Of a stretch of DNA of 22,787 nucleotides, positions 3,729 to 22,661 are shown piece after piece; within the stretch, counting starts at the first letter, position 1; each line of letters opens with the position of its first letter. The DNA is taken from IMG/VR virus record IMGVR_UViG_3300027770_000270, positions 1 to 22,787 of that record; one strand, written 5' to 3'. A model generated the notes under the pieces. That model was not told the origin of the DNA, searched no databases, and worked only from the letters and a program-made list of their open reading frames with translations. Both the position numbers and the translations under genes were made by a program. The DNA is from a virus.

Positions 3729-4032
3729 AGTCATTCTCCTGTAGTTTGCGCAGTAACGTCCGATTGTCGATCCTTACTCCGCTTGCCCGACACCACCAAC
3801 TAACCGTCCCATTCTTAAAATCCCTCAGTAGCTTCTGTACCTCATGGGAGTTTTTATACTCCAGCGCATCGTTGAGTGGCACGCCCTGGTGATCTTTGAC
3901 GATCCTCATACCTTTAACCATCCCCCTTTTGCGCAGCAAGCGCAGGTCACGGATGGCTTGTAACGCAACCTCACCAGCCAACTGCTGCAACCTATCGTCA
4001 TAATCACCACGACAAAGGTGCGTTGACCTCAC
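3712..4032 (-). CDS. Hypothetical phage protein, 106 aa
   Basis: The start is GTG at 4032, overlapping the TGA of the glycosyltransferase (GTGA). The sequence is helical and basic in its first half (DDRLQQLAGEVALQAIRDLRLLRKRG). It ends with VQKLLRDFKNGTVSWWCRASGVRIDNRTLLRKLQ, which loosely recalls a family of small phage proteins whose C-terminus reads 'FF.S.W...L...dg..li.kLr'. That resemblance is from memory and weak. It overlaps the next gene by 17 bases. Function unknown. Confidence 0.6.
   Translation of the reverse strand: MRSTHLCRGDYDDRLQQLAGEVALQAIRDLRLLRKRGMVKGMRIVKDHQGVPLNDALEYKNSHEVQKLLRDFKNGTVSWWCRASGVRIDNRTLLRKLQENDYALPT
3736..3740 (-). promoter_or_regulatory. Ribosome-binding site choosing the second ATG of the 48-aa gene
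   Basis: AGGAG is followed by one base, then ATG (3734), then a second ATG (3728). Only the second ATG has workable spacing (seven bases), so it decides the start of the membrane microprotein. Confidence 0.65.
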
Positions 4033-4694
4033 CTACCCAACCCCACCAGCTTCGCTTCGTCTTCTTTGATCTGGTTAGCTAACTTAACTAGATCATTCGA
4101 CTGCCCTGCGTAATGAATAATCATTGCGTCCTTGTAGCGGTCCAAACCAAAGTGCGACTCCACGCTCGTCATGCAATTAAAGGATGGGTCAAGCTCGGTT
4201 AGAGGAATGTTCCATAGGTGCGCCATCACGTTGAGCCAGGTCTGCTCGGCGAAGTGATTAGGGTGCAGGCCGATGGGTGGCATCGACAAGATACCCACGG
4301 CCTTAGTATGAACTACGAACACGCCAGTGTTGACATAAAATCGAGGCTCAATAATACCCCCGAAAGCTCCAGCCAGCTTCACCATCTCTGGTTTACGATC
4401 TAAGTAAGCCCCCTCGTCAAAGGCGCAGAAAACCCCAGCGTCATCGGATAGCTTGGGGCAATCTGCTGTAATCAAAACATCAGCGTCAACGAACGTCACT
4501 TGGTCATAGCCCTTAGTGGCCATGATGTTTCCGATAGCAGACTTAGAATACTGCATCGGATGGGTTAGAGGTTTGTCGATTAGAATGAAGTCGCAGTTGT
4601 GACGCTTGCAGTACGCCTCCATGCGTGGCCTAGTCAGATCCAGAATCTTTTGCCAGTCCTCACCAAACGATTGCGTTACTAATGCTTGTTTCAT
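4029..4694 (-). CDS. GT-A glycosyltransferase (GT8-like)
   Basis: The 221-residue product looks like a compact GT-A enzyme. There is an N-terminal strand (MKQALVTQSFG), a central VTFVDADVLI carrying the DxD motif (Asp70-Ala-Asp72) for metal and nucleotide-sugar binding, FYVNTGVFVVH near 118-128, EQTWLN near 149, and a late HYAG motif. This is the layout of GT8-type retaining galactosyl/glucosyl transferases and related phage enzymes. The start ATG at 4694 has GGAGG eight bases upstream and overlaps the TGA of the 58-residue gene. With the GT9 gene 2 kb downstream it makes a second glycosyltransferase in one operon. Donor and acceptor unknown. Confidence 0.75.
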   Translation of the reverse strand: MKQALVTQSFGEDWQKILDLTRPRMEAYCKRHNCDFILIDKPLTHPMQYSKSAIGNIMATKGYDQVTFVDADVLITADCPKLSDDAGVFCAFDEGAYLDRKPEMVKLAGAFGGIIEPRFYVNTGVFVVHTKAVGILSMPPIGLHPNHFAEQTWLNVMAHLWNIPLTELDPSFNCMTSVESHFGLDRYKDAMIIHYAGQSNDLVKLANQIKEDEAKLVGLGR

Positions 4695-7369: not shown

Positions 7370-7549
7370 TTAGTTCCGCCAAGTTTTATTAGCGTTGCTA
7401 ATATCCCTATTAAATTTGTTAATCATTGCTCTTATGGTCATCTTCTCAACAATTTCTTGGTTTGCCTTAACCCACGCAATGGCCTCATCGTAGGACTTTG
7501 CATCCTGCAACCCATCCTCAAACTGATCCCACGCCTCTTTCTCGTTCAC
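7370..7549 (-). CDS. Small helical protein, 59 aa
   Basis: GTG at 7549 overlaps the TGA of the upstream nuclease (GTGA), and the frame runs to TAA at 7372-7370. The product (MNEKEAWDQFEDGLQDAKSYDE...) is charged and helical, with a Trp in each half and a basic, Asn-rich C-terminus. No family recognised. It fills most of the stretch between two nuclease genes, leaving only 44 non-coding bases. Codon periodicity and the overlap support it; no ribosome-binding site beyond coupling is seen. Confidence 0.55.
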   Translation of the reverse strand: MNEKEAWDQFEDGLQDAKSYDEAIAWVKANQEIVEKMTIRAMINKFNRDISNANKTWRN

Positions 7550-7929
7550 AGGTTCTTAAATACACGCCAACCACCACCTGTCGATGGGCAAAGCTTGGTT
7601 GTTACCGACCTGCACTTGGCAATGGGCAACAGCCAGAATAGATCATCGTTCATACCCCAGCAGGCAACGTAATCCACGCCACTGATAGCGCGCTTTGGGA
7701 TATTAAATCCATTGCCACTGCTAGTGGTGAAGCGATACTTGGTGCGACCAGGTTCTATCGCTTGGGCAGTCTTAACTTGGATGCGGTAAAACTTATTATT
7801 CCTCTCTGCCACCACATCGTACCCAGCAAAGTCCTCGTAAGGCGTAAGCACGTTGTACCCGCACCGCAGTAACGCGCCAGTAACGCGAGCCACCCCAACT
7901 GCTCCAATTTGGCGGGAACTTAATTTCAT
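7546..7929 (-). CDS. PD-(D/E)XK endonuclease-like protein
   Basis: The 127-residue product has the compact layout of small phage or archaeal endonucleases. There is a leading helix (QIGAVGVARVTGALLRCGYNVLTP), then GYDVVAERNNKFYRIQVKTA with Asp38 and Gln51-Val-Lys53, and a later VDYVACWG strand. The helix normally carries a Glu ('GE..V') that helps bind metal; here the matching positions are Ala/Val (GAVGVARV), so activity may be reduced or the ligand may come from elsewhere. It starts at ATG 7929 without a clear ribosome-binding site, 38 bases from the divergent plus-strand gene. The next gene overlaps its stop by four bases. Confidence 0.65.
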   Translation of the reverse strand: MKLSSRQIGAVGVARVTGALLRCGYNVLTPYEDFAGYDVVAERNNKFYRIQVKTAQAIEPGRTKYRFTTSSGNGFNIPKRAISGVDYVACWGMNDDLFWLLPIAKCRSVTTKLCPSTGGGWRVFKNL

Positions 7930-7967
7930 GCTTGACGGACTTCGGTTTGTGCTAGAGACTTTTTCCT

Positions 7968-8339
7968 ATGAAAGCAATAACAACTATAACACTGATGGCG
8001 ATGCTTGTGGCATCGGTGATGGCGGAAGATGAAACCGAAATGAACGACTTCGTTGGTGGTGTGTATGAAGGCAGCGGAATATCTGCAACTGCTGGGAATG
8101 TCGCTGTGGGAACACAAGGCTCGATAATAAGGGCTGGTGATACATATCTTACTCCTACTGGAGTTTATGTGAAAGCTGGAGATAGTTATGTTTCCGCAAA
8201 CCGCACAGTAGTTCGCGCTGGTGATTCATTTGTCGGATATAATACTTCGCAAGTAAAAGCTGATAATGTATTTGTTGGCCGATCTGTGGCGATTGTTTCT
8301 GGAGCTACTATCTTTAAGCAATCTTGGGCAAGCCGTTAA
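7968..8339 (+). CDS. Secreted 14-residue-repeat protein (only plus-strand gene)
   Basis: The 123-residue product starts with a signal peptide: Lys2, a hydrophobic core (ITTITLMAMLVASVMA) and a likely cut after Ala19, before EDET. The mature part carries tandem repeats of 13 to 14 residues: SIIRAGDTYLTPTG (52-65), VYVKAGDSYVSANR (66-79), TVVRAGDSFVGYNT (80-93), then two weaker copies. The consensus is (V/I)(R/K)AGDS(Y/F)V, suggesting a small beta-solenoid or beta-roll. It runs against every other gene in the window and fills a 406-base space between two minus-strand genes. The stop overlaps the lysozyme stop. The upstream region has a poor ribosome-binding site and no convincing promoter. It may be a moron-type gene active in the periplasm or outside the cell; function unknown. 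Confidence 0.75.
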   Translation: MKAITTITLMAMLVASVMAEDETEMNDFVGGVYEGSGISATAGNVAVGTQGSIIRAGDTYLTPTGVYVKAGDSYVSANRTVVRAGDSFVGYNTSQVKADNVFVGRSVAIVSGATIFKQSWASR

Positions 8340-8349
8340 CCCTGCCCAA
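8324..8349. terminator. Inverted repeat across the convergent stop codons
   Basis: TTGGGCA (8324-8330) and TGCCCAA (8343-8349) form a perfect 7-bp stem with a 12-base loop holding both stop codons of the convergent genes. Neither side has a real U-tract, so a classical intrinsic terminator is not complete. Its position at the only convergent junction suggests a bidirectional terminator or RNA 3'-end stabiliser. Confidence 0.4.
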
Positions 8350-9070
8350 AGGTTGACAATCTATTCCTAATCCTAGCCTCTAGGCCAGGAATAAATTTCT
8401 TTCTGGCTGGGTTGCGTTCCGCCATATTGTACTCATCCTGCAATTGAGCATCGCTGGCTGCACGCATTAAGGCTCTTGGCTCAACTTGGTTTATCGCGGC
8501 TAATGTCTTAGGACCAAACCCGCCATCTACTGCCACCTTCTGACCAAGAGCGTTTAGTCCTTGCTGGATGTACTTCGTTGCACCGCCCAGCCCACGATTA
8601 AACGCGAGATCCTGCGTGAATGGCTGGAGTGGTTGGGGGAGTCTTTCGACAAGCGGCGCGGTGTATCCTTGGATGTACTCTGCCGCAGCTTTCGCTCTTT
8701 CTTGCGGAGGTAACGATGAGATAGCCTTGAATGCTTCTGGATGGTATCGGTCATTGATTCCAGCTACTTCAAAGTTTCCACCCATATCTCCAGATGGCAA
8801 CTTGTAGACGGCAAGATTTCCCTGCTTGTCCTTGCGGCCCTCCCACTCCACGGTTTGCAATGGTAGCGGAAGTGCGCCAGAGGGCTGCTGGGCTGGTACT
8901 GTCGGTGGCTTAACATATTCGCTCATAGGTTCTATCCTTGCGGCTTGTTCTGGTGGTTGTTGTGGTGGCTTTGAGTAAGGCTCAAACTCCATGCGGATTG
9001 CGTTATTGCGATCCTGCTGGTTTAAGCCAGTTTGGCGTGACGCTGATCCAGAGATGTCAAACTTAGCCAT
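8336..9070 (-). CDS. GH108-like lysozyme with peptidoglycan-binding domain
   Basis: The 244-residue product has a proline/glutamine-rich N-terminal arm (about 1-70). A lysozyme-like segment follows with VEWEGR (Glu77 the candidate catalytic acid) and EVAGINDRYHPEAF. The C-terminal part is DLAFNRGLGGATKYIQQ...VDGGFGPKTLAAIN...RNRL, which fits the peptidoglycan-binding_3 domain paired with GH108 muramidases. It would cleave the glycan backbone of peptidoglycan. There is no signal peptide or membrane helix. The proline-rich arm and its place after the internal virion protein genes suit a virion-associated muramidase as well as an endolysin. Good AAGGAGA ribosome-binding site; the ATG at 9070 follows directly on the TAA of the 1453-residue gene. 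Confidence 0.7.
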   Translation of the reverse strand: MAKFDISGSASRQTGLNQQDRNNAIRMEFEPYSKPPQQPPEQAARIEPMSEYVKPPTVPAQQPSGALPLPLQTVEWEGRKDKQGNLAVYKLPSGDMGGNFEVAGINDRYHPEAFKAISSLPPQERAKAAAEYIQGYTAPLVERLPQPLQPFTQDLAFNRGLGGATKYIQQGLNALGQKVAVDGGFGPKTLAAINQVEPRALMRAASDAQLQDEYNMAERNPARKKFIPGLEARIRNRLSTFGQG

Positions 9071-12000
9071 TTATTCTCCTTGCTGCATCATAAGCTCTCG
9101 GCCTATCTCTTGACGCTTTTGCATTTCTTCTGGAGATAGCTCCCGCCTCATGCTCTTTGTGAGCGACTTGCTGATCTTGTAGTCTCTGTACTTGTTGTTG
9201 GCTATGGCTGAGGCGTTATCAACGCCCATACCACCAGCGCGCATTGCAGAGATAGCTTCTGACCTAGACAATCCCAGCATCATTGCGGCGTGAAAGTCTT
9301 TGTTTGCTTCATCGAACATAATCCTGCGTCTATTCTGCATCTTATCGAACTGCTCCCGCACTTTTGCTTCTGGAACATTGCCAACTGCGCCATAGGTTTC
9401 GGTGAATATCCTACCAACATCAGCCATATCCGTATTAAACCTAGATGCCTTCGATTCGAGTGCCTTGGATACGTTGATGGATTGAGGACGGATACCGAAC
9501 AAGGCGGACAATTCCTCGGATGGCTTGTAGATACGGCCATACCGAGAGACAGATGTGTCGGGTTGGCCAGATAGAGCGTATCCAATCCTGCGGATTTGCG
9601 ATACAGTAGCTGGTTCGTTTTGACGTAGGACATAAGAAATTACGTCCAAGGATTGATCGGTAAAGGTGTCCTGCGGATTGCGAATAGTTCTGCCTTGTGG
9701 AGTTTTTCCGTAGTACGCAGATATAATGGAATTAGCCAAAATGCTTGGCCCAATATAAGCCTCTGTAAATTCTTTGATTGCACCCAAAATCTTTTCCTCT
9801 GGATCTCGGCCAGCAGCCACAGCCTGCACTGGCCCCATGAAGATTTCGTATGGGCTGGTGTAGGATATATCCACATAACCAACATCCTTGCCATCCATCC
9901 CAGTAGGCATTAGGGCAGCGTTCTTTTGGTACGGCGCAACAAACCTTCTTAACGCATCTGCCTTACGATCATTAAATCCAGTAGCCCACTTGGCAAGCTC
10001 AACCAAACCGTAAACCGCAGATGTTCCCGCCAACATTCCTATTAACCTTTGTAACCCGTATCTACGCATACCAGGTGTTTTCATGTCCTCGCCTGCATAC
10101 CTCAGTGTATTGGGCAAAATCCGCAACATCTCTGAAGGCCAAGAAACAAAGTTTCCAATTAAAGGTTGCAGACGGAAGGCTTTAATAATCCTTGGCACAC
10201 GCGAGTAGGTTGGCCTTGTGTTTTTGACGCGCTCGGCTGCAATCACTTCAGCCTCTAGGCGTGACAACCCCCTGCCGTCCATTAGTTGCTTGGCTTCATT
10301 CTCCCAAGCCATCAACTTGAACAAATTATCACCAGCACGATAGGTTTTGTTTAGTGTTTCAATGCCAACCTTAACTCCTTTTCTTACAAAACCAGCACCA
10401 GTTCTAGCCAGTTTACCCGCCTTTGCAGACAACTCTTCAGCAAGGTCAATTGTTGATCCCTTGTACTGCTGTGCATCCTTGAGCATTTGCGTAAATTCGT
10501 TAAGAACAGTGTTGTCGTATACTCCAAGTTGAGCAGCGCGAGTAAGATAGGCTCTGCCTTCCTTTGTATCCACAGAAGGAACTCCAAATTCAGCCAATAT
10601 TGTCTTTACTGGCTTTAGGTTCCCACCAAAATTGAAGTTTCCATTCACAACTTCGATCAATACGTTTGAAATAGGATTTCTAAACTGAGCCTGAATACTT
10701 CCAACTGTCTTGCCCCACTTAACCCAAGCATTCGCCATTGAGTAAAGCTGAAATGCAGTTCCGCCCTTGTGAAACATCTCAAAATTCTCAATGGCATCGA
10801 CCAAATCTTTCTCGGCGTATAGCCCATTTAACGGCGAGCGAGTGTCCGATCCGTCAGCCGCAATCTGTGTGGCTGCATTGCCAGTTGGCCTTTCAAAGAA
10901 TAGTTTGTTTGCAACTCCAAACTCTTTCAGTTTGTTCAACTGCTCTTGGGACTGGAGCAAGTTAATCATTTTGCTCGCAGACCTAGCGTAGTTGATAACT
11001 GGATCATTGTACTCGCCCATCAAGAATCGGATCTGCTCTGGAATATCTTGCCTTGCTTTTGTTATGCCAAGTTTTTTGCCAATCCCAGCAGACTGTATCA
11101 AGGATTCAAATGGCTTATCCATTCCGCCCTCAACTAACTCTTTAATCTTGCCCTGCACCTCGGCCTCGGTTGTGGCTGGGCTTGCGGCCTTCATTTGTGT
11201 TCTTACAAAGTTCTCGGCATTTGCGTATGCGGCTGGATTTCTCTGCTTCACAAGCTCTACATTGTATTTAGGATTATCAAACTTCTCGTAAGAACGAGTC
11301 AGATACTCGCCCTTATTCATCCTAATCATATCAGCCTTGCTCATTCCAGACGGACCAACTTCTTGTGAGAACACGCCAGACTGGATTAAGCCTTCAGATA
11401 GGTTGTCAAGCTGACGGCGCATTTGCTGAACGATTGGCTGGAGAGGCTCTGGAAGATTGTTGATTGGTAAATATCCTCGCAAAAACTGGTCAACTTGCAG
11501 CGACTGTTCTGGGGTAAGTTTTGATTGCTTGTTAAGCTTCTTCGCCGCATTCAATAGATCCTTCAGAGTAAAATCAATTTGCTTTAGCATCGCCTGCGTG
11601 CGCGATCCCTTGGCTTCCATAATGTCAAACATCTCTTTAGGAAGATTCCCTTCAGTAGTAAGCCACTTCTGCGCTACCTTGGCCGCACCTTCCTGCACAT
11701 CGGATACAATGAACCCACCCTCACCAGTCTTGCCACGCATGGGGCGAGGAATGGTTGTCTTACCCTTAATTTCAATGGCATCTCCATCCAAGAATGCCCT
11801 AGATGCTAAACCTGCATTTGCATTTGCATTCTCACCCAGCATGAAATCTTTATTTCTGCCTTTTAATTCAGCCTTGTATTGCTTCCCATCTAAATCAAAC
11901 AAAATTGATTCACGCTTTTGACCTTCAACATAGGGCGCGTATTTAACATTTGAAATTCTTTTTGTGAAGTCTTCAGCAGCTTGCCTTGCCGTTGTAATCA

Positions 12001-13432
12001 TTCCAGAAACAATAGGAGGCATAACAGATTGCCCTTGTTTTTCAGATTGAATAATTGGCTTTGATTCAACTTCTTGTATTGGTAAAGCTTCACCCTCCGC
12101 TGGCAACGCCAACCTCTCTCCACTAGGCAACTGTGTCCTTGGCGTGACAATTGGACCTTCTCGTACAATCTCGCCTTGCAGTCCGCGCGTGTCTGGAATA
12201 ATAGCCTCACGATTGATGCCTTGGGATTCAATTGTAAATACGTTTGTCTTCGGCACTGGATCGTTTAAATCGACCAAGCTTTCCTGCATCGGAGTGGTGA
12301 TTCCTCGCCGTTGCATCGCAGCCGTGTCAGCTTGTGTGCCACGGACAATTCCGCGCACACCAGCTTCGGGTAGTTCTGGCACAACAGGTCTAGGCGCGGG
12401 TAGCTCGGCGGTAGGTTGTGGCGTTACTTGCGGCTGTTCGCCTGGGGTAAGTTCAGTCTTATCTAATACCCTGCGTCCACCTAGTTCTACTTCAGTGCGC
12501 CTTGCTCCAGCTACGCCCCTTGCCTGTGTTCTTTGTGCTTCGGCCAGTATGCCATTCCAATCCCTAAACTCCGCTTCTGTGGCATTACCAGATTTAACCC
12601 TTTCATTCAACGACAACGCCTGCTCTCGGTTATACCCCTTAATCCTTGACCCACTCCCCAGCCCAGCAAAGGCCGCACCGAATAAGGCATCTGTGGCGAT
12701 TGTGCTAGGCGTAACCTCTCCTCCAGTAACTGCCCTCACGCCCGTTCCAACCCCAGCACCTATCCCAGCCCCCGTGGCTACGGTCTTACCCAGTTCCTGC
12801 GCTGCTCTCTTTGCGCCTAATTCTTGAAACAATGTCTTGCCAGCTTGGACTAATTGCTTCGCGCCAACCGTACCCATCACAACCTCTGGCGCGTACTGGC
12901 CAGCGGTGGCATAACCTGGAGCAATTTGTTTAGATACCTCTATTTTTTTTGGAACATTTCCCAAGGGGAAGTTTCTTAACGCAACATCAGCCAATTCTGC
13001 GCCAGCAATTGATCCAGCAACACCTCCAGCGACAGCCCCTACTGGTCCGCCTACAGCCGCGCCACCAATTCCACCAAGCAATCCGCCACCAACAGCTCCC
13101 ACGCCTTTTCCAAAACCAGCCAAACCAGCTATTGCCTTTGCGCCGACCTGAGAAGGCACATCAACAGCCTCTTTATTTACGAAGTCATCAATCTCAACAT
13201 CTTGTTCTGGCGTGTAATCTGGAAGTGTGGATGCGTATTGTTTGGTTTCCGTACCCCATTGGCGAGCCAAGTCAACCTGCTCTGGATAGGTAAGGGTCTT
13301 GTAGTCTTCTGAAGCCTTGATCTCGCTCCACGCTGGGGGTTCTTCTGGCTTTGGCGGTGGTTCTGCTTCTACTGGCATGCCTGCCAGTTGCCTAATACGA
13401 TTGGCTGATGATAGCTCTAGGGCTTCAGCCAT
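9071..13432 (-). CDS. Large internal virion (DNA-ejection) protein, 1453 aa
   Basis: This is the largest gene of the window. A proline-rich start is followed by a Gly/Ala-rich hydrophobic stretch at about residues 98-150 (AGFGKGVGAVGGG, GGAAVGGPVGAVAGG). A second such stretch lies near 210-240 (GAGIGAGVGTGV). Low-complexity hydrophobic segments like these are usual in ejected proteins that enter the cell envelope. The later part, with AFQLYSMANAWVKWGKTVGSIQAQFRNPISN, recalls the 'large polyvalent protein-associated' domains of phage ejection proteins. The C-terminus is a charged helix. It is the positional counterpart of T7 gp16 or of P22-type ejection proteins. Start ATG 13432 comes one base after the upstream TAA. 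Role in DNA delivery is inferred. Confidence 0.7.
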   Translation of the reverse strand: MAEALELSSANRIRQLAGMPVEAEPPPKPEEPPAWSEIKASEDYKTLTYPEQVDLARQWGTETKQYASTLPDYTPEQDVEIDDFVNKEAVDVPSQVGAKAIAGLAGFGKGVGAVGGGLLGGIGGAAVGGPVGAVAGGVAGSIAGAELADVALRNFPLGNVPKKIEVSKQIAPGYATAGQYAPEVVMGTVGAKQLVQAGKTLFQELGAKRAAQELGKTVATGAGIGAGVGTGVRAVTGGEVTPSTIATDALFGAAFAGLGSGSRIKGYNREQALSLNERVKSGNATEAEFRDWNGILAEAQRTQARGVAGARRTEVELGGRRVLDKTELTPGEQPQVTPQPTAELPAPRPVVPELPEAGVRGIVRGTQADTAAMQRRGITTPMQESLVDLNDPVPKTNVFTIESQGINREAIIPDTRGLQGEIVREGPIVTPRTQLPSGERLALPAEGEALPIQEVESKPIIQSEKQGQSVMPPIVSGMITTARQAAEDFTKRISNVKYAPYVEGQKRESILFDLDGKQYKAELKGRNKDFMLGENANANAGLASRAFLDGDAIEIKGKTTIPRPMRGKTGEGGFIVSDVQEGAAKVAQKWLTTEGNLPKEMFDIMEAKGSRTQAMLKQIDFTLKDLLNAAKKLNKQSKLTPEQSLQVDQFLRGYLPINNLPEPLQPIVQQMRRQLDNLSEGLIQSGVFSQEVGPSGMSKADMIRMNKGEYLTRSYEKFDNPKYNVELVKQRNPAAYANAENFVRTQMKAASPATTEAEVQGKIKELVEGGMDKPFESLIQSAGIGKKLGITKARQDIPEQIRFLMGEYNDPVINYARSASKMINLLQSQEQLNKLKEFGVANKLFFERPTGNAATQIAADGSDTRSPLNGLYAEKDLVDAIENFEMFHKGGTAFQLYSMANAWVKWGKTVGSIQAQFRNPISNVLIEVVNGNFNFGGNLKPVKTILAEFGVPSVDTKEGRAYLTRAAQLGVYDNTVLNEFTQMLKDAQQYKGSTIDLAEELSAKAGKLARTGAGFVRKGVKVGIETLNKTYRAGDNLFKLMAWENEAKQLMDGRGLSRLEAEVIAAERVKNTRPTYSRVPRIIKAFRLQPLIGNFVSWPSEMLRILPNTLRYAGEDMKTPGMRRYGLQRLIGMLAGTSAVYGLVELAKWATGFNDRKADALRRFVAPYQKNAALMPTGMDGKDVGYVDISYTSPYEIFMGPVQAVAAGRDPEEKILGAIKEFTEAYIGPSILANSIISAYYGKTPQGRTIRNPQDTFTDQSLDVISYVLRQNEPATVSQIRRIGYALSGQPDTSVSRYGRIYKPSEELSALFGIRPQSINVSKALESKASRFNTDMADVGRIFTETYGAVGNVPEAKVREQFDKMQNRRRIMFDEANKDFHAAMMLGLSRSEAISAMRAGGMGVDNASAIANNKYRDYKISKSLTKSMRRELSPEEMQKRQEIGRELMMQQGE

Positions 13433-16859: not shown

Positions 16860-18679
16860 ATATTCTTTTGCACCTCAATGGTGTCGGGGTTGGCTGCAAG
16901 CATAATTTGCTTAATAGAAAGTTTCCTGCTTGGAGCCTCCATCTTAAACTTCATATTACGCCACTTCTGGTAAGACCTTAAACTATCAGCCCTAAAATTG
17001 TAGGTCTGAGCCGAAAGTGTGGCTGGAAGCGTAAATGGAAGGGTCAACCCCCCTGGAGTCGATGTGTCAACACCAGTTCCAAGTGTCACATATTGGGAGT
17101 CTGTCTCCCGCTTCATTCCTATCGTACATCCAGTAGCCGTTGAGTAATAGTATTCCATCTCATAGTGCGAACCATACTTCTTTGAAATCTTGTCATCAAA
17201 ATCATACGCCTTGGTCACAACGTATGACGTATAGGATGTCCCATAATCCTTAAACTCGGTATTGCCATCGCCCTGTAGGTCTGGGTCAAGGTAATCGTAA
17301 AGATGTCCAACTTGCCCTGTCGGGCTACCAATCGCAAGCTTCACGCAGTTTGTTGAGTAACCACCAGAAAAGTTTGTCTTTGTCATCGCGCTTGCAGCTA
17401 TTGACCATAAGCCTTCAAATGAACCAAACAGCGTGTTGTAAACAAGCACATAATTGCAGGTTGTTGAATTATCAAGCGGAAGAGATAGATAGTATCTATT
17501 GTTATGGAACGCTGCGTTGGCATCGCCTATGTAGCTTCGGTTAATTCTTGCAATAATGTTTTTTACTGGCTCGGTAAGGGTTGGTCCGACTGCGTAGAAA
17601 TCATCAGCCGCAGACCTGACAACGCTTCTGATCCCATCGTTGGACAAAAAGAACACATCCTTGTTTGTGAAGATTGCAGATGCAGCAGCCTGACATCCAA
17701 TCTTATCGTTAATAAGCCTTACCGTCCATCCAGACGCTGTAGTTGCGGTTGGGTCTGCGGTTACTAAATAAATCTTGTTTGGCTTGAAAACTAGAAGTTC
17801 ATAGTCAAAGAAAGGCTGGATTGCAATAATGTCCTCTCCGTCATTCCCACCGACAACAATGCTATTTGTCGATTTCCATATCTCAGCATCAAGGATATCT
17901 GATGCGTAAAGCGTGTTTCGATTATCTCCAGTTCCTACTGCAAAAAGTCTATTTGTAAAATTTCTGATTAAACGTAGGCCAGCAGGCGAAAGAGCAGACA
18001 CGCTGGCTGTTGCTGTTGCGCCAGACCCACCTCCTCCAGTAATTGTAACTGTAGGTGCTGAAGTGTATCCAGATCCAGCCGAACCACCAGGAATAGTAAT
18101 GGCTGATACTTTATTAGAGACAACTGATGCAACTGCTGTTGCCGTTGTTCCGTAACCTAGGCTTGGTGCTGCAATTGTTACTGTTGGTACTGATGTGTAG
18201 CCAGAGCCATCGTTTGTAACTGTAATTGAAAGAACGCTTGTGCCTTGCCTGTAATAATTTGTTCCATTTGTGAAATAAATATAACTTGCGCCATCCGTAT
18301 AATAAAGCCTCTCATTAAATTGGGTAAAATTAACTGGAACAGCACCGCTTGTCACAGTGCCAGCAGTTGTTGCAAAACTTGTTGCACTTGTTGTTTGAGA
18401 GAGCCTTCCATTGCAGGCTACAATAATTCTTTCAAAATTTGCCGTATCAAAGTAATGCATTCCTTGAATTGCTGAACCACTTGATACATTTGTTGATACC
18501 GTTTCAATTCCCTGCCTGGTCTGTAGGTTCCCAGACGGACTGATCGTCATGTTATAAATATCGCTGGCTTGATTATTCCCAATTGAACTTGGGGAAATGC
18601 CAGAAGCCTGCCCACCCTCAAAGCTGGGCGATCCAGCTATAGCCAATACATCGTCTGTTGTGTCTATGTAGAGAGGCAT
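16856..18679 (-). CDS. Tail nozzle / stabilisation protein (T7 gp12 or P22 gp10-like)
   Basis: The 607-residue product has the repeated short strand motifs of a beta-propeller: IQGMHYFDTANFERIIVACNGRLSQ, FNERLYYTDGASYIYF, NRLFAVGTGDNRNTLYASD, YELLVFKPNKIYLVT, NDGIRSVV, NNRYYLSLPL. This pattern is typical of the podovirus tail hub placed below the adaptor. A 75-residue insert (about 151-228) contains two copies of GSGYTS(V/A)PTVTI. The C-terminus, with YSTATGCTIGMKRETDSQY and RSYQKWRNMKFKMEA, is beta-rich. It follows the gp11-like adaptor gene, the same order as gp11-gp12 in T7. AAGG before ATG 18679. The family is inferred from pattern and order. Confidence 0.7.
   Translation of the reverse strand: MPLYIDTTDDVLAIAGSPSFEGGQASGISPSSIGNNQASDIYNMTISPSGNLQTRQGIETVSTNVSSGSAIQGMHYFDTANFERIIVACNGRLSQTTSATSFATTAGTVTSGAVPVNFTQFNERLYYTDGASYIYFTNGTNYYRQGTSVLSITVTNDGSGYTSVPTVTIAAPSLGYGTTATAVASVVSNKVSAITIPGGSAGSGYTSAPTVTITGGGGSGATATASVSALSPAGLRLIRNFTNRLFAVGTGDNRNTLYASDILDAEIWKSTNSIVVGGNDGEDIIAIQPFFDYELLVFKPNKIYLVTADPTATTASGWTVRLINDKIGCQAAASAIFTNKDVFFLSNDGIRSVVRSAADDFYAVGPTLTEPVKNIIARINRSYIGDANAAFHNNRYYLSLPLDNSTTCNYVLVYNTLFGSFEGLWSIAASAMTKTNFSGGYSTNCVKLAIGSPTGQVGHLYDYLDPDLQGDGNTEFKDYGTSYTSYVVTKAYDFDDKISKKYGSHYEMEYYYSTATGCTIGMKRETDSQYVTLGTGVDTSTPGGLTLPFTLPATLSAQTYNFRADSLRSYQKWRNMKFKMEAPSRKLSIKQIMLAANPDTIEVQKNI
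17996..18229 (-). repeat. Two-copy GSGYTSxPTVTI insert within the tail protein
   Basis: Residues 151-188 and 192-228 are two diverged copies of a ~38-residue unit with the core GSGYTS(V/A)PTVTI followed by a Gly-rich turn and ATAxAxV. It interrupts the propeller between blades and looks like an added surface module. Confidence 0.75.
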
Positions 18680-18691
18680 AAAGCCTTACTT

Positions 18692-19390
18692 TTAAGCCGA
18701 GAACATTTCTTCTATTGTTAATTCACCCAGGCTTTGCGGAGTAATCTGTTTAACGCCCCCAACTTGGCTCAACTCATAGTTAGCCATGGCTGCAAGATCG
18801 GAGTTCGCGCCCTGCGTAATTACCTGCGCCTTTGTATACTGACGCTCACGCTCAAGTGCATCTGCATGAGTTAAGGCAAGAACCAAGTGATGAACGTGGG
18901 GTAGGCGAAGTTCGTCACCAAGAGCGTCATTGGACGGAGGAAAGTCAACGATATAGTTGGAGCGAGTGATGCACTTTAACTTTTCAATAACTCGCAGTGG
19001 GATTGTTCCAGATGTTGCAAGCCTTGGATACAAGTCAAGCTCTGCAACGCCACTGCTGTTTCGACCTGTGAAATGGTATGTATCTGGATCGCCTGTTCGC
19101 TCATCGGATAGCAAGCCTGGGTCTTGGCTGATAATGGTGGCCAAATCAACAGGATCAACCTCGGCATCATTGTAAGCCACGGAAAGAGGGGTTTCTACAT
19201 TCGTGCCAAGCGTGATTGTGCGGCTTGTGCCAACAGAATAGGTGGAGTTGGTTACAGTCTCGCGCCAAGGGGCAAAGTCCCATACACGCCGATAAGCCAA
19301 GCTTGCGGCCTTTTGCAGAAAGGTAAGCGTGTCCGAGTCGGTCTTGCCAACCTTCTCGCCTGCGTACTGAGCGATTTCGGTTAGGGTCAT
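18692..19390 (-). CDS. Head-tail adaptor / tail tubular protein A (T7 gp11-like)
   Basis: The 232-residue product begins MTLTEIAQYAGEKVGKTDSD, then LTFLQKAASLAYRRVWDFAPWRET. This is the helical N-terminus typical of gp11-type adaptors, in which a helix is followed by the 'RIYDFRPWR'-like segment. A beta-rich middle (TITLGTNVETPLSVAYND, DTYHFTGRNSSGVAELDLYPR) and a helical end (LVLALTHADALERERQYTKAQ) follow. Such proteins form the ring between portal and nozzle. It starts immediately after the TAA of the preceding gene and precedes the nozzle-like gene by twelve bases. Assignment rests on pattern and gene order. Confidence 0.7.
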   Translation of the reverse strand: MTLTEIAQYAGEKVGKTDSDTLTFLQKAASLAYRRVWDFAPWRETVTNSTYSVGTSRTITLGTNVETPLSVAYNDAEVDPVDLATIISQDPGLLSDERTGDPDTYHFTGRNSSGVAELDLYPRLATSGTIPLRVIEKLKCITRSNYIVDFPPSNDALGDELRLPHVHHLVLALTHADALERERQYTKAQVITQGANSDLAAMANYELSQVGGVKQITPQSLGELTIEEMFSA

Positions 19391-19702
19391 TTAGTTATTC
19401 CAAGGGAAAGGAACAACTGAAACTTGGGGGTTTAGAATGTCGTTGATTTGCTCGGAAAGGCTTGCTTCAAGTCCAGCAATGTCAACTGAGGAAGTAACCC
19501 AAGACTTCACAACATCTTCAGTCAGTTGATTGAATGGAATAAATGAACTGCTTGGTTGGTAGAATGAAGATGTTCCATAACGAGCGCACGTTGCGCTACC
19601 TTCGGTTGCGGTGTATTCCCAATCAACCTCAACAACAAAGTCTTGCTTGTTGTCCAATTCTTTTGCTGCTCGGAGTTGCTTGATGTTTAGATTGTATTCC
19701 AT
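19391..19702 (-). CDS. Tail-associated small protein, 103 aa (DUF7936-like)
   Basis: The layout is a strand-rich first half (NKQDFVVEVDWEYTATEGSATCARYGTSSF), then FIPFNQLTEDVVKSWV, a helix (LEASLSEQINDILNP), and a C-terminal VVPFPWNN. A ~100-residue phage family with the order 'V.WR..A..g......YG', 'f.pf..LTe..v..Wv', 'E..l...i....nP', 'lPW' is found beside tail or fibre genes and is listed, from memory, as DUF7936. The fit is good but not checked. It lies between the fibre and adaptor genes, one base after the fibre stop and directly before the adaptor ATG. Confidence 0.6.
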   Translation of the reverse strand: MEYNLNIKQLRAAKELDNKQDFVVEVDWEYTATEGSATCARYGTSSFYQPSSSFIPFNQLTEDVVKSWVTSSVDIAGLEASLSEQINDILNPQVSVVPFPWNN

Positions 19703-19703
19703 A

Positions 19704-21008
19704 TTATGATGCCATTGTTACCCAGCTTGTTCCATTAGAAACAAGTGTAGCCCATGATCCAGAGGCTGCTGGAAGAATTGCAGTTCCAGCCGTTGTTCCG
19801 TTTATTGGAACAACATTTGCTGACGCTGAAACAACTGTAAGAGCTTGAAGTGTTTTTATTGTAAACTCCCTGCCCGTCCATGACGAGGCAGCAGGAAGCG
19901 TAGCCGTACAACTTGTTGTGGCCTTATTTACAATAATCCAATTTTCAGTTGCGGCCAAAGTAAAGTCAGCAGTCTTTGTGACTGGCGCGCCACGGCCAAA
20001 GGAGCCTACAACTTCCAGTTTATTGACTGGTGCTGTTACCCCAATACCAACATCGCCCTTGTAATCAACACGGAGGCGTTCCAATACATTTCCAGACGTT
20101 GTCCTTGTTTGGAGTATCAAATTTCCAGCGGGTCCAGTTCCATTGTCAAGAAATCCTTTAATTCCTGCAAATATACCTGAAGAAGCCCCAAAAAGTATTT
20201 GACCACCATTCCCTTGAGATGCTCCTGTATCCTGAAGATACAAGGCTTGCCCGTCAGCATCTCCGTTTGTGTAACTACCAGATGTTGTTCCAGCACCTTG
20301 TACATGAATTTTTGCCTCAGGACTTGCTAGACCAATCCCAACATTGCCACTTGAATCAACAACAGCGAGTGCTGATCCTGCATTAAAATTTAATTTAAGA
20401 GCCGTGTCGTTTGCAGTATAACCCAATCTAAACTGATTGGTTCCGTCTGGACGATCAAATTGAATTGCGCCGCCAGTTGCTATGTGAAGTTTTGTCTGAG
20501 GACTCGTAGTCCCAATCCCAACATTGCCACTTGAATCCTTGTAAATCTGTCCGCTTCCAACATTCATTATATTTGTTGATCCAGTAATCGTTCCAGTTGC
20601 GACAAGCGTAGCAATCGTTCCAGTAGTGCTATTGAGCGTAGCTACTGTTCCAGTAGTGGAATTAAGGTTTGTAATCGTTCCAGTAGTGCTATTGAGCGTA
20701 GCCACAGTACCAGTAGTAATTGTTGCCGTAGATGAAGTTAAAGTCTGAATCGTCCCTGCCGTTGTATTGATCGTTCCAGTAAGCTCGGCCTTCATTACGT
20801 TAGCTACTGTCATGCGCTTGAGCGTATTCGAGTCAGAGGCATCACCAATTAGAAGGGTATCGTTTGTAGCTACAACTGTCTCAGCGGTACGATCCTGGAT
20901 AAGCCCAGAGGTTGGGGTTGCATTGGTAACTAGCGCACCTAGCTTGGCAGCTGTTACGTCATTTGCTACTCCGTCAACAAAGGTTGTTCCTGCGGTAAAT
21001 GAAGCCAT
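19704..21008 (-). CDS. Tail fibre protein with low-complexity and VGIG repeats, 434 aa
   Basis: The first ~75 residues (TAGTTFVDGVANDVTAAKLGALV) look like a fibre attachment region. Next comes a 10-residue repeat run (TGTVATLNST, TGTITNLNST, TGTVATLNST, TGTIATL). Then three copies of the motif (N/D)VGIG-xx-(S/A)P-xxK(L/I)xV follow: NVGIGTTSPQTKLHI, NVGIGLASPEAKIHV and DVGIGVTAPVNKLEV. The C-terminus is a beta-rich domain (TATLPAASSWTGREFTIKTL...) without a recognisable S74 chaperone. Such fibres are trimeric, and the C-terminal part would contact the host. A GGGAG ribosome-binding site stands before ATG 21008. Recognised as a fibre by composition and repeats. Confidence 0.75.
   Translation of the reverse strand: MASFTAGTTFVDGVANDVTAAKLGALVTNATPTSGLIQDRTAETVVATNDTLLIGDASDSNTLKRMTVANVMKAELTGTINTTAGTIQTLTSSTATITTGTVATLNSTTGTITNLNSTTGTVATLNSTTGTIATLVATGTITGSTNIMNVGSGQIYKDSSGNVGIGTTSPQTKLHIATGGAIQFDRPDGTNQFRLGYTANDTALKLNFNAGSALAVVDSSGNVGIGLASPEAKIHVQGAGTTSGSYTNGDADGQALYLQDTGASQGNGGQILFGASSGIFAGIKGFLDNGTGPAGNLILQTRTTSGNVLERLRVDYKGDVGIGVTAPVNKLEVVGSFGRGAPVTKTADFTLAATENWIIVNKATTSCTATLPAASSWTGREFTIKTLQALTVVSASANVVPINGTTAGTAILPAASGSWATLVSNGTSWVTMAS
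20332..20537 (-). repeat. 26-bp direct repeat encoding the SSGNVGIG motif
   Basis: Identical 26-base copies lie at 20332-20357 and 20512-20537 (ccaatcccaacattgccact and the next six bases). They encode DSSGNVGIG in two places. A third, diverged copy of the protein motif lies near 20040. Confidence 0.8.
20613..20702 (-). repeat. 30-bp exact direct repeats at 60-bp spacing in the fibre gene
   Basis: The same 30 bases occur at 20613-20642 and 20673-20702, starting aatcgttccagtagtgctat on the plus strand. A partly matching unit lies between them. They encode the TGTVATLNST-type decapeptide run. Exact copies a whole number of codons apart could add or remove 20 residues by recombination. Confidence 0.85.
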
Positions 21009-21269: not shown

Positions 21270-21397
21270 GGTTTAGTTGCCCCTAGGTCAGATGCTGCCC
21301 CCATATCCGAATATACAGGAAGCGGGTTATTGTCAACCTTGCGTGGCGAGCAGGAGGATAAAGCTATGCAGGATAAGGCTAGGCTAATAAATCGCAT
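21266..21397 (-). CDS. Small lipoprotein, spanin (Rz1)-like, 43 aa
   Basis: The frame begins MRFISLALSCIALSSCSPRK: a short basic start, a hydrophobic core and the lipobox LSSC, so Cys16 would be lipid-modified and the mature part is about 28 residues with three prolines. The length, lipobox and proline content match outer-membrane spanin subunits of the Rz1 type, which bridge the envelope in the last step of lysis. It overlaps the end of the upstream gene by 14 bases and its TGA overlaps the ATG of the holin-like gene (ATGA). No inner-membrane spanin partner is seen nearby unless the 81-residue protein acts as one. Confidence 0.6.
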   Translation of the reverse strand: MRFISLALSCIALSSCSPRKVDNNPLPVYSDMGAASDLGATKP

Positions 21398-22157
21398 ATT
21401 TAGTGTTTAGATACGCCTCTACCTGCTGGCGTTGTTGTGTTGTTAAAACTCTGTTATAAAATACAATTTCGGAAACTTTCCCCTTGAAAATCTGATCACT
21501 TCCAGCGTTATTCTGCATTCCAATATAAAGACTCGTATCATTTGCAATAGCATTTGAATAAACATTTGATGAATCAGAATAAAACTCTGTTCCGTTGCAA
21601 AATATCTTCCAATCATTATTTTGAGAATAAACGGAGCAAATGTTCCAGCTTGTAATTCCGCTTGGTAGCCCTAAATCATCTTTCCTTGAGTCAGTGGCAA
21701 AAGAATCATAAACTGAATTTGCAAGGCCAAAAGGCCAATGACTGCCATCCGCTGCACTTCCGAAATTACCGAGCAACGCTCCGTTTGCATTATCTCCAAA
21801 TACTTCTGGATCAACATAGTTAACTACAAATGCTGTTGCTCCAGAAGCTCCCATCGGATTTCCGCTAATTTGAAGAGATTTGTTTGTTCCACCAGCTACC
21901 GATGATAGGCTGATGGTTGGTTTTCCATTTAAGTCTGAAGAGTTATAGGTAGGGCTAATATCTACTGGTGTTGCGTTTCTTCCATTCCCACTCTGATCTG
22001 CCCATGCTGTTACATTTGAGCCTAATAAAGTAACTCCTGCATCAGCCTTTAGCCACATGGATAAGCCAGATAAATCGGATGGTGAGAACGGAGCAGATCC
22101 TCCAATCTTAATTCTTCGCAAGTTCTGGACTCCTAAACCTAGAGATAATCTTGGCAT
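21384..22157 (-). CDS. LamG/concanavalin-A-like adhesin with shared N-terminal tag, 257 aa
   Basis: After MPRLSLGLGVQNLRRIKIGG the sequence becomes a LamG (concanavalin A-like) jelly-roll. It opens with LSMWLKADAGVTLLGSNVTAWADQSGNGRNAT, continues with DWKIFCNGTEFYSDSS, and closes with GKVSEIVFYNRVLTTQQRQQVEAYLNTKY, the common end of such domains. These domains bind carbohydrates, so the protein is a candidate head or tail adhesin. The first 11 residues equal those of the next gene upstream. ATG 22157 lies two bases after that gene's stop and has no ribosome-binding site. Confidence 0.75.
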   Translation of the reverse strand: MPRLSLGLGVQNLRRIKIGGSAPFSPSDLSGLSMWLKADAGVTLLGSNVTAWADQSGNGRNATPVDISPTYNSSDLNGKPTISLSSVAGGTNKSLQISGNPMGASGATAFVVNYVDPEVFGDNANGALLGNFGSAADGSHWPFGLANSVYDSFATDSRKDDLGLPSGITSWNICSVYSQNNDWKIFCNGTEFYSDSSNVYSNAIANDTSLYIGMQNNAGSDQIFKGKVSEIVFYNRVLTTQQRQQVEAYLNTKYAIY

Positions 22158-22161
22158 AAAA

Positions 22162-22644
22162 TCAAACAGCAGTGATGGTGATGGATGGAGACCAGCCAGA
22201 GGTGGGGATTATTGTTTCATCTGTGGATGAATTATTGCTTGAATTAACAAATTGAAAATCATCTGTCTCGCCTGAAAGACCATAAACCTTACCAGCCCTC
22301 CAAAATGTTTCAGATGGAAGTGGATTAAAAAATGTTGCTGTGAATGTTGTGTTTGGTGGAATAAGAATATGTCCGTATGGCGAGGTCGGATAATCGCCAT
22401 CTCCATATCCAGCTTCTTTTAAGTAGACCAAGCCAGTAGCTATAAACATTTTATCGCTGATAAGAGATCCAGCGACCCTTGTTATTATTGATGTAACTTT
22501 TGTATATGTTCCAGTTGGAACAACGATATTATTGCCAGATATATTAACTGCGTTTGTGGTGGCTACAACAAGAGGTCCTGCTGATGCGCCACTCTTAACC
22601 TTACTAACGGCTTGCACGCCCAAGCCTAAAGATAGTCTTGGCAT
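22162..22644 (-). CDS. Tagged beta-rich structural protein of unknown function, 160 aa
   Basis: The product begins MPRLSLGLGVQAVSKVKSGASA, the same tag as its downstream neighbour. A beta-rich domain follows (VNISGNNIVVPTGTYTKVTSIITR, GHILIPPNTTFTATFFNPL), and the protein ends in SPSITITAV. No catalytic motif or known fold signature was recognised. It may be a virion decoration or adhesin that uses the tag for attachment. The frame is open to 22659 with a TTG, but ATG 22644 is where the shared tag begins. No ribosome-binding site is visible. Confidence 0.6.
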   Translation of the reverse strand: MPRLSLGLGVQAVSKVKSGASAGPLVVATTNAVNISGNNIVVPTGTYTKVTSIITRVAGSLISDKMFIATGLVYLKEAGYGDGDYPTSPYGHILIPPNTTFTATFFNPLPSETFWRAGKVYGLSGETDDFQFVNSSNNSSTDETIIPTSGWSPSITITAV

Positions 22645-22661
22645 ATAATTACAATGCAATC

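Follow-up and report, generated by a model that had tools for sequence, protein, structure and literature searches.

Within a 22,787-nt stretch of viral DNA (IMG/VR record IMGVR_UViG_3300027770_000270, positions 1–22,787; hereafter the window), the plus-strand open reading frame at 7968–8339 encodes, from an ATG start codon, a 123-residue protein. We found that this target gene is a fixed core locus of its phage family. Replacement affects the exported domain alone, which moves as an intact cassette, or in some cases the whole gene. Relatives were collected from IMG/VR (50 by protein, 112 stretches by leader DNA, and more via both neighbor genes), and about 12 discrete classes (A–J plus D2 and E2) can be told apart by their mature domains, with identities of 20–50% between classes and mostly above 85–90% within them. 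Across classes, the promoter and signal peptide hardly vary. Among 36 gene families compared over 51 contigs, the target varied most, with a mean identity of 0.43 (0.85 for pairs of one class and 0.38 for pairs of different classes), and the PD-(D/E)XK endonuclease-like gene to its left had a mean identity of 0.86. In phages, one would normally look to the tail for the gene with the greatest variation; in the families compared here, that gene encodes a small exported protein.

Phages with flanks that are 94–97% identical in DNA can bear different classes, and the upstream junction is where the signal peptide ends, the downstream one being the stop codon. Between L210 (class D) and L256 (class G), the flanks are 96–97% identical and the leader is above 90%; identity drops to ~40% at base +60, where the signal peptide ends, and is back at 93–100% directly after the stop; between L199 and L174 the whole target gene is exchanged. 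These junctions were read from pairwise alignments, which replaced ungapped identity profiles anchored at the ATG that were blurred by spacer length. The ratio of nonsynonymous to synonymous polymorphism (pN/pS) was 0.01–0.29 within classes and third codon positions hold most changes, which argues that the target is a real, translated gene under selection; the classes are stable under purifying selection. Individual metagenomes hold several classes at once; sample 3300011114, for example, holds five or six (B, F, distant D, H, E, G). We rejected a diversity-generating retroelement, since the variation consists of discrete classes under purifying selection and no reverse transcriptase was found among the proteins scanned. 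Coding on the antisense strand of the target was also rejected, as no frame is open along the whole gene except in class I and it is the plus frame that is under selection. In class I loci (for example L179), the antisense of the whole target is open for 130 codons, which holds for all class I members and for no other class.

All 80 relatives found via the PD-(D/E)XK gene carry the target reversed and 36–38 bp upstream of that gene, including seven loci cut by a contig end in which the target start is nonetheless visible. It was also present in all 50 contigs picked for linkage (six of the class labels were assigned from separate class comparisons). The order of PD-(D/E)XK gene, reversed target and muramidase gene was the same in every relative that could be checked. 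An apparent gap in L288 proved to be an extra gene, the target being present there as well; this 263-residue gene (L288 4716–5507) is inserted between muramidase and target in that one relative. An initial annotation of the window had suggested a moron with independent expression. Its accessory status fails because the target is in all relatives with a readable locus, while a promoter of its own is probable given the upstream elements described below. Like a phage moron, the target stands alone and reversed between two operons, with a putative promoter of its own, but it is fixed, not sporadic, and the payload is the part that varies. The same annotation called it a lone plus-strand gene, which is true within the window, where every other plausible gene is on the minus strand, but not beyond it. 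In G001, a nearly complete relative of 36.7 kb, the target’s strand also carries a group of small early-region genes at ~17.3–20.9 kb, and the target points the same way as the small genes of the early region in near-complete phages. A small-gene block in the target’s direction and opposite to the rest of the phage, probably the early region, was also observed at L315 ~17300–20000 and L316 1–1130.

The putative promoter in the window (7932–7967, plus strand) consists of TTGACG at 7932 and GAGACT 17 bases on, ending a few bases before the ATG. In 128 of 130 relatives, TTGAC was located 34–36 bases upstream of the start and preceded a −10-like GAgACT, GATACT or AATAGT, and Shine-Dalgarno-like motifs preceded 10 of 130 targets vs. 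91 of 130 muramidase genes. Because the TTGAC spacing is fixed and Shine-Dalgarno-like motifs are rare, the target probably has a private promoter and its mRNA is probably nearly leaderless, with a very short 5′ leader. A generic consensus promoter scan did not report the element at 7932, as GAGACT is a weak −10, and an Rfam search gave no match.

Linkage between class and the surrounding genes is strongly one-sided, with class nearly independent of its own leader and the left gene and tied to the muramidase and the inner-virion protein. The left neighbor (7546–7929, minus strand) matches Pfam PDDEXK_5 (E = 5e-15). To the right lie the convergent muramidase or endolysin gene (8336–9070, minus strand; PG_binding_3, PHROG endolysin) and the gene for a large inner-virion protein (9071–13432, minus strand; phrog_22602, PHROG E = 9e-45). 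Class changed 73 times along the PD-(D/E)XK gene tree and 69 times along that of its own promoter and leader (~90 after shuffling), but just 35 times along that of the muramidase. Adjusted mutual information with class was 0.03–0.14 for the PD-(D/E)XK gene, 0.19–0.25 for the leader, 0.54–0.70 for the muramidase and 0.64–0.70 for the inner-virion protein, with shuffles reaching at most 0.10 for these. The linkage decays rightward and reaches background by the structural and tail-region genes, where nearest-neighbor class matches (genes of 232, 610 and 74 residues) were 0.09–0.16 vs. 0.10–0.12 expected. Class H goes with one inner-protein type and E2 with another, as do F, D2, I and E/J, and classes A, B, C, D and G share the type found in the window. 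Inner-virion proteins of widely differing type and size (~690–1450 residues) occupy this one place, for example at L315 2384–6466 and in the window.

The protein begins with a signal peptide (7968–8024, plus strand, 19 codons), MKAITTITLMAMLVASVMA followed by ED after the cleavage site, in which a lysine, a hydrophobic core and a V-x-A cleavage site can be read. Judged from these features it is of standard Sec type, with a product predicted to be exported. This region is kept across classes up to the cleavage site, a signal peptide was found in sequences of all classes, and it is the single hydrophobic stretch of the protein; a membrane anchor, including a lipobox, was not noticed in the target sequences. 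The exchangeable mature domain (8025–8339, plus strand; class A in the window) comprises a short N-terminal helix and then about six 14-residue beta repeats with the core AGDS[YF]V. Self-similarity of the mature part gave z = 7.2 at lag 14, which none of 2000 shuffles reached, so that the repeat is non-random, and z = 5.3 at lag 28. The signal peptide and 14-residue repeats noted in the initial annotation are thus borne out, as is the overlap of the target stop with that of the lysozyme (here termed muramidase), the four bases TTAA (8336–8339) being common to both; in nearly all relatives the two stops touch or overlap. That annotation had also named loss of the repeats and signal peptide in relatives as grounds for abandoning its reading, and the repeats are kept, though their sequence is exchanged wholesale.

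We agree with the initial annotation that the family is not a recognized one. The window protein and 63 members gave at most chance-level matches to Pfam, NCBIfam and PHROGs, as did four proteins in PADLOC. Profile searches of PDB sequences found no related structure (Cholix matches at E = 0.2–0.8 were noise), and annotated phage genomes yielded no DNA match and a best protein match of E = 0.3. None was found in bacterial genomes searched with the target alignment, a weak negative as the alignment was reduced to one leader pattern. A confident AlphaFold2 model from 63 mature sequences (predicted local distance difference test, pLDDT, 91.8; predicted template modeling score, pTM, 0.85) consists of a short helix followed by alternating strands, 6 and 4 residues long, in a 14-residue period; it is all-beta after the helix. 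Foldseek and VIA searches with two models returned nothing significant (best Z 5.7 and 5.0, with VIA covering Foldseek candidates only). The weak fold matches were mostly antiparallel sheets and barrels (VIA Z at best 5.0 for the model from 63 sequences), and PliC, of the eight-stranded MliC/PliC barrels, appeared among Foldseek noise at E ~1–2. YadA-like heads (Hep_Hag) and other 14-residue beta-rolls have a period of about 14 residues, beta strands and two-residue turns. The target shares this period, but no match to the Hep_Hag profile occurred among the 63 members, and it differs further in having no significant fold match and no anchor or stalk domain. Of the small exported beta-solenoid proposed earlier, an exported all-beta 14-residue repeat is therefore predicted, but the solenoid itself is unproven, as no known solenoid matches.

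The phages carrying the locus are aquatic and have genomes of ~37–38 kb. The closest matches of their terminase (34–37%) and muramidase (34%) are in Akkermansia phages, and a Lake Lanier metagenome-assembled genome contains a terminase fragment with 73% identity, so a Gram-negative host in the Verrucomicrobiota is likely.

We tentatively favor, at somewhat less than an even chance, superinfection exclusion, one of the possibilities named in the initial annotation. The target protein would work in the periplasm, against the entry machinery of phages like its own; this reading fits its combination of predicted export, discrete classes, cassette exchange, and linkage to the muramidase and inner-virion protein. 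The swapped classes suggest competition among the phages in the envelope of the host cell. The protein would fold in the periplasm of the Gram-negative, probably verrucomicrobial, host during infection and keep further phages out by binding part of their entry machinery. The part bound would most likely be the muramidase, which cuts the wall, or the inner-virion protein, which passes through the envelope. Every class would recognize its own group of entry proteins, and we propose that this is why class and muramidase or inner protein travel together. Where phage populations are mixed, a rare payload would be advantageous, and this would maintain many classes within one water sample.

Two known systems offer parallels. 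T4 Spackle (gp61.3) is an exported early periplasmic protein that binds and inhibits the tail lysozyme, an alpha-helical bundle of 75 residues with generally highly conserved homologs (PMC7677548). Both it and the target are small phage proteins with a cleaved export signal (predicted from sequence for the target); Spackle is made from the phage genome in lytic infection, and its kind of target, a wall-cutting enzyme, is linked to class here. The target differs in being a predicted all-beta 14-residue repeat of about 12 classes, not a helical bundle. P22 SieA occurs as three types that are less than 30% identical and acts on highly variable ejection proteins (PMC10883804), which resembles the several divergent types of the target and the linkage of class to inner-virion protein type. 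In contrast to the inner-membrane SieA, the target has its only hydrophobic stretch in a cleavable signal peptide, followed by a mature beta repeat, and is in all relatives; the larger proteins of G001 showed no integrase. We regard Spackle and SieA as precedents for the way of working and not as relatives.

Several observations weigh against exclusion. No exclusion protein is related to the target in sequence or fold, and the coupling is not one-to-one, as five classes share the inner-protein type of the window. Some payload swaps leave the muramidase 93–97% identical. The linkage to the right-hand block may also be physical, with the whole block moving, because the conserved leader favors crossovers and the divergence of the right arm hinders them. 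In addition, the P22 SieA types showed no difference in target specificity (PMC10883804). That exclusion would be class-specific we can only infer, because block exchange can yield the linkage and the SieA types showed no such difference. A wider proposal, which we hold to be rather doubtful, is that the locus serves as a plug-in site with a fixed promoter and export signal, at which recognition domains are exchanged among co-circulating phages; the classes would then define exclusion groups, comparable to mating or incompatibility types. Each group would correspond to the entry proteins of its phages, and frequency-dependent selection would maintain the diversity. If the target sets such groups, competition among related phages in natural waters becomes directly testable by sequence typing and cross-exclusion.

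The exclusion reading has three competitors. The payload could have an envelope function unrelated to entry, its right-arm linkage merely reflecting block exchange with crossovers in the leader, which we consider unlikely; the sharp left boundary at the leader, the gradual rightward decay, and a leader and promoter conserved enough for homologous recombination would fit, but the classes are discrete and functionally constrained, and some swaps involve the payload alone, with no exchange of the block, which shows that the payload is itself exchanged. Less probable still is receptor masking or host-surface modification, in which each class binds a variant host envelope protein (receptor, porin or secretion component), stopping re-adsorption or disabling a host function, with diversity that tracks polymorphic host proteins. 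An exported product in discrete classes, several of them within one sample, would be expected, but class is unlinked to the tail-region structural genes and neither a lipobox nor another kind of membrane anchor was apparent in the sequences. Moreover, the fiber of the window is near those of both a class C phage (G016, 84–87% over two pieces) and a class A phage (G001, 70–83%), although fibers are very mosaic and a link to class could be missed. Control of lysis, with the target as a periplasmic inhibitor of the convergent muramidase or as a regulator of antiholin type, such that lysis is delayed or cells are protected from enzyme that neighbors release, is improbable: the stops of the two genes adjoin, class is tied to muramidase type and the search gave no second endolysin candidate, but the payload changes although muramidase DNA is 94–97% identical, the linkage to the inner-virion protein is equally strong, and G047 has its holin-like and Rz-like genes near the terminase and not at the target locus.

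The holin-like and Rz-like genes at L389 9047–9539 adjoin the terminase, away from the muramidase, and this position raises the question of whether the muramidase belongs to the virion instead of serving as the endolysin. Elsewhere in the window, the replication arm contains glycosyltransferase-like genes of the GT9 and GT8 families (866–2098 and 4029–4694, minus strand), and a PAPS-reductase-like gene lies at 20–784. Two adjacent minus-strand genes (21384–22157 and 22162–22659) have the common start MPRLSLGLGVQ and then differ, one of them carrying a lectin-like Laminin_G_3 domain; similar starts occur in G001 and G047, and the pair is another arrangement with a constant start and a variable end.
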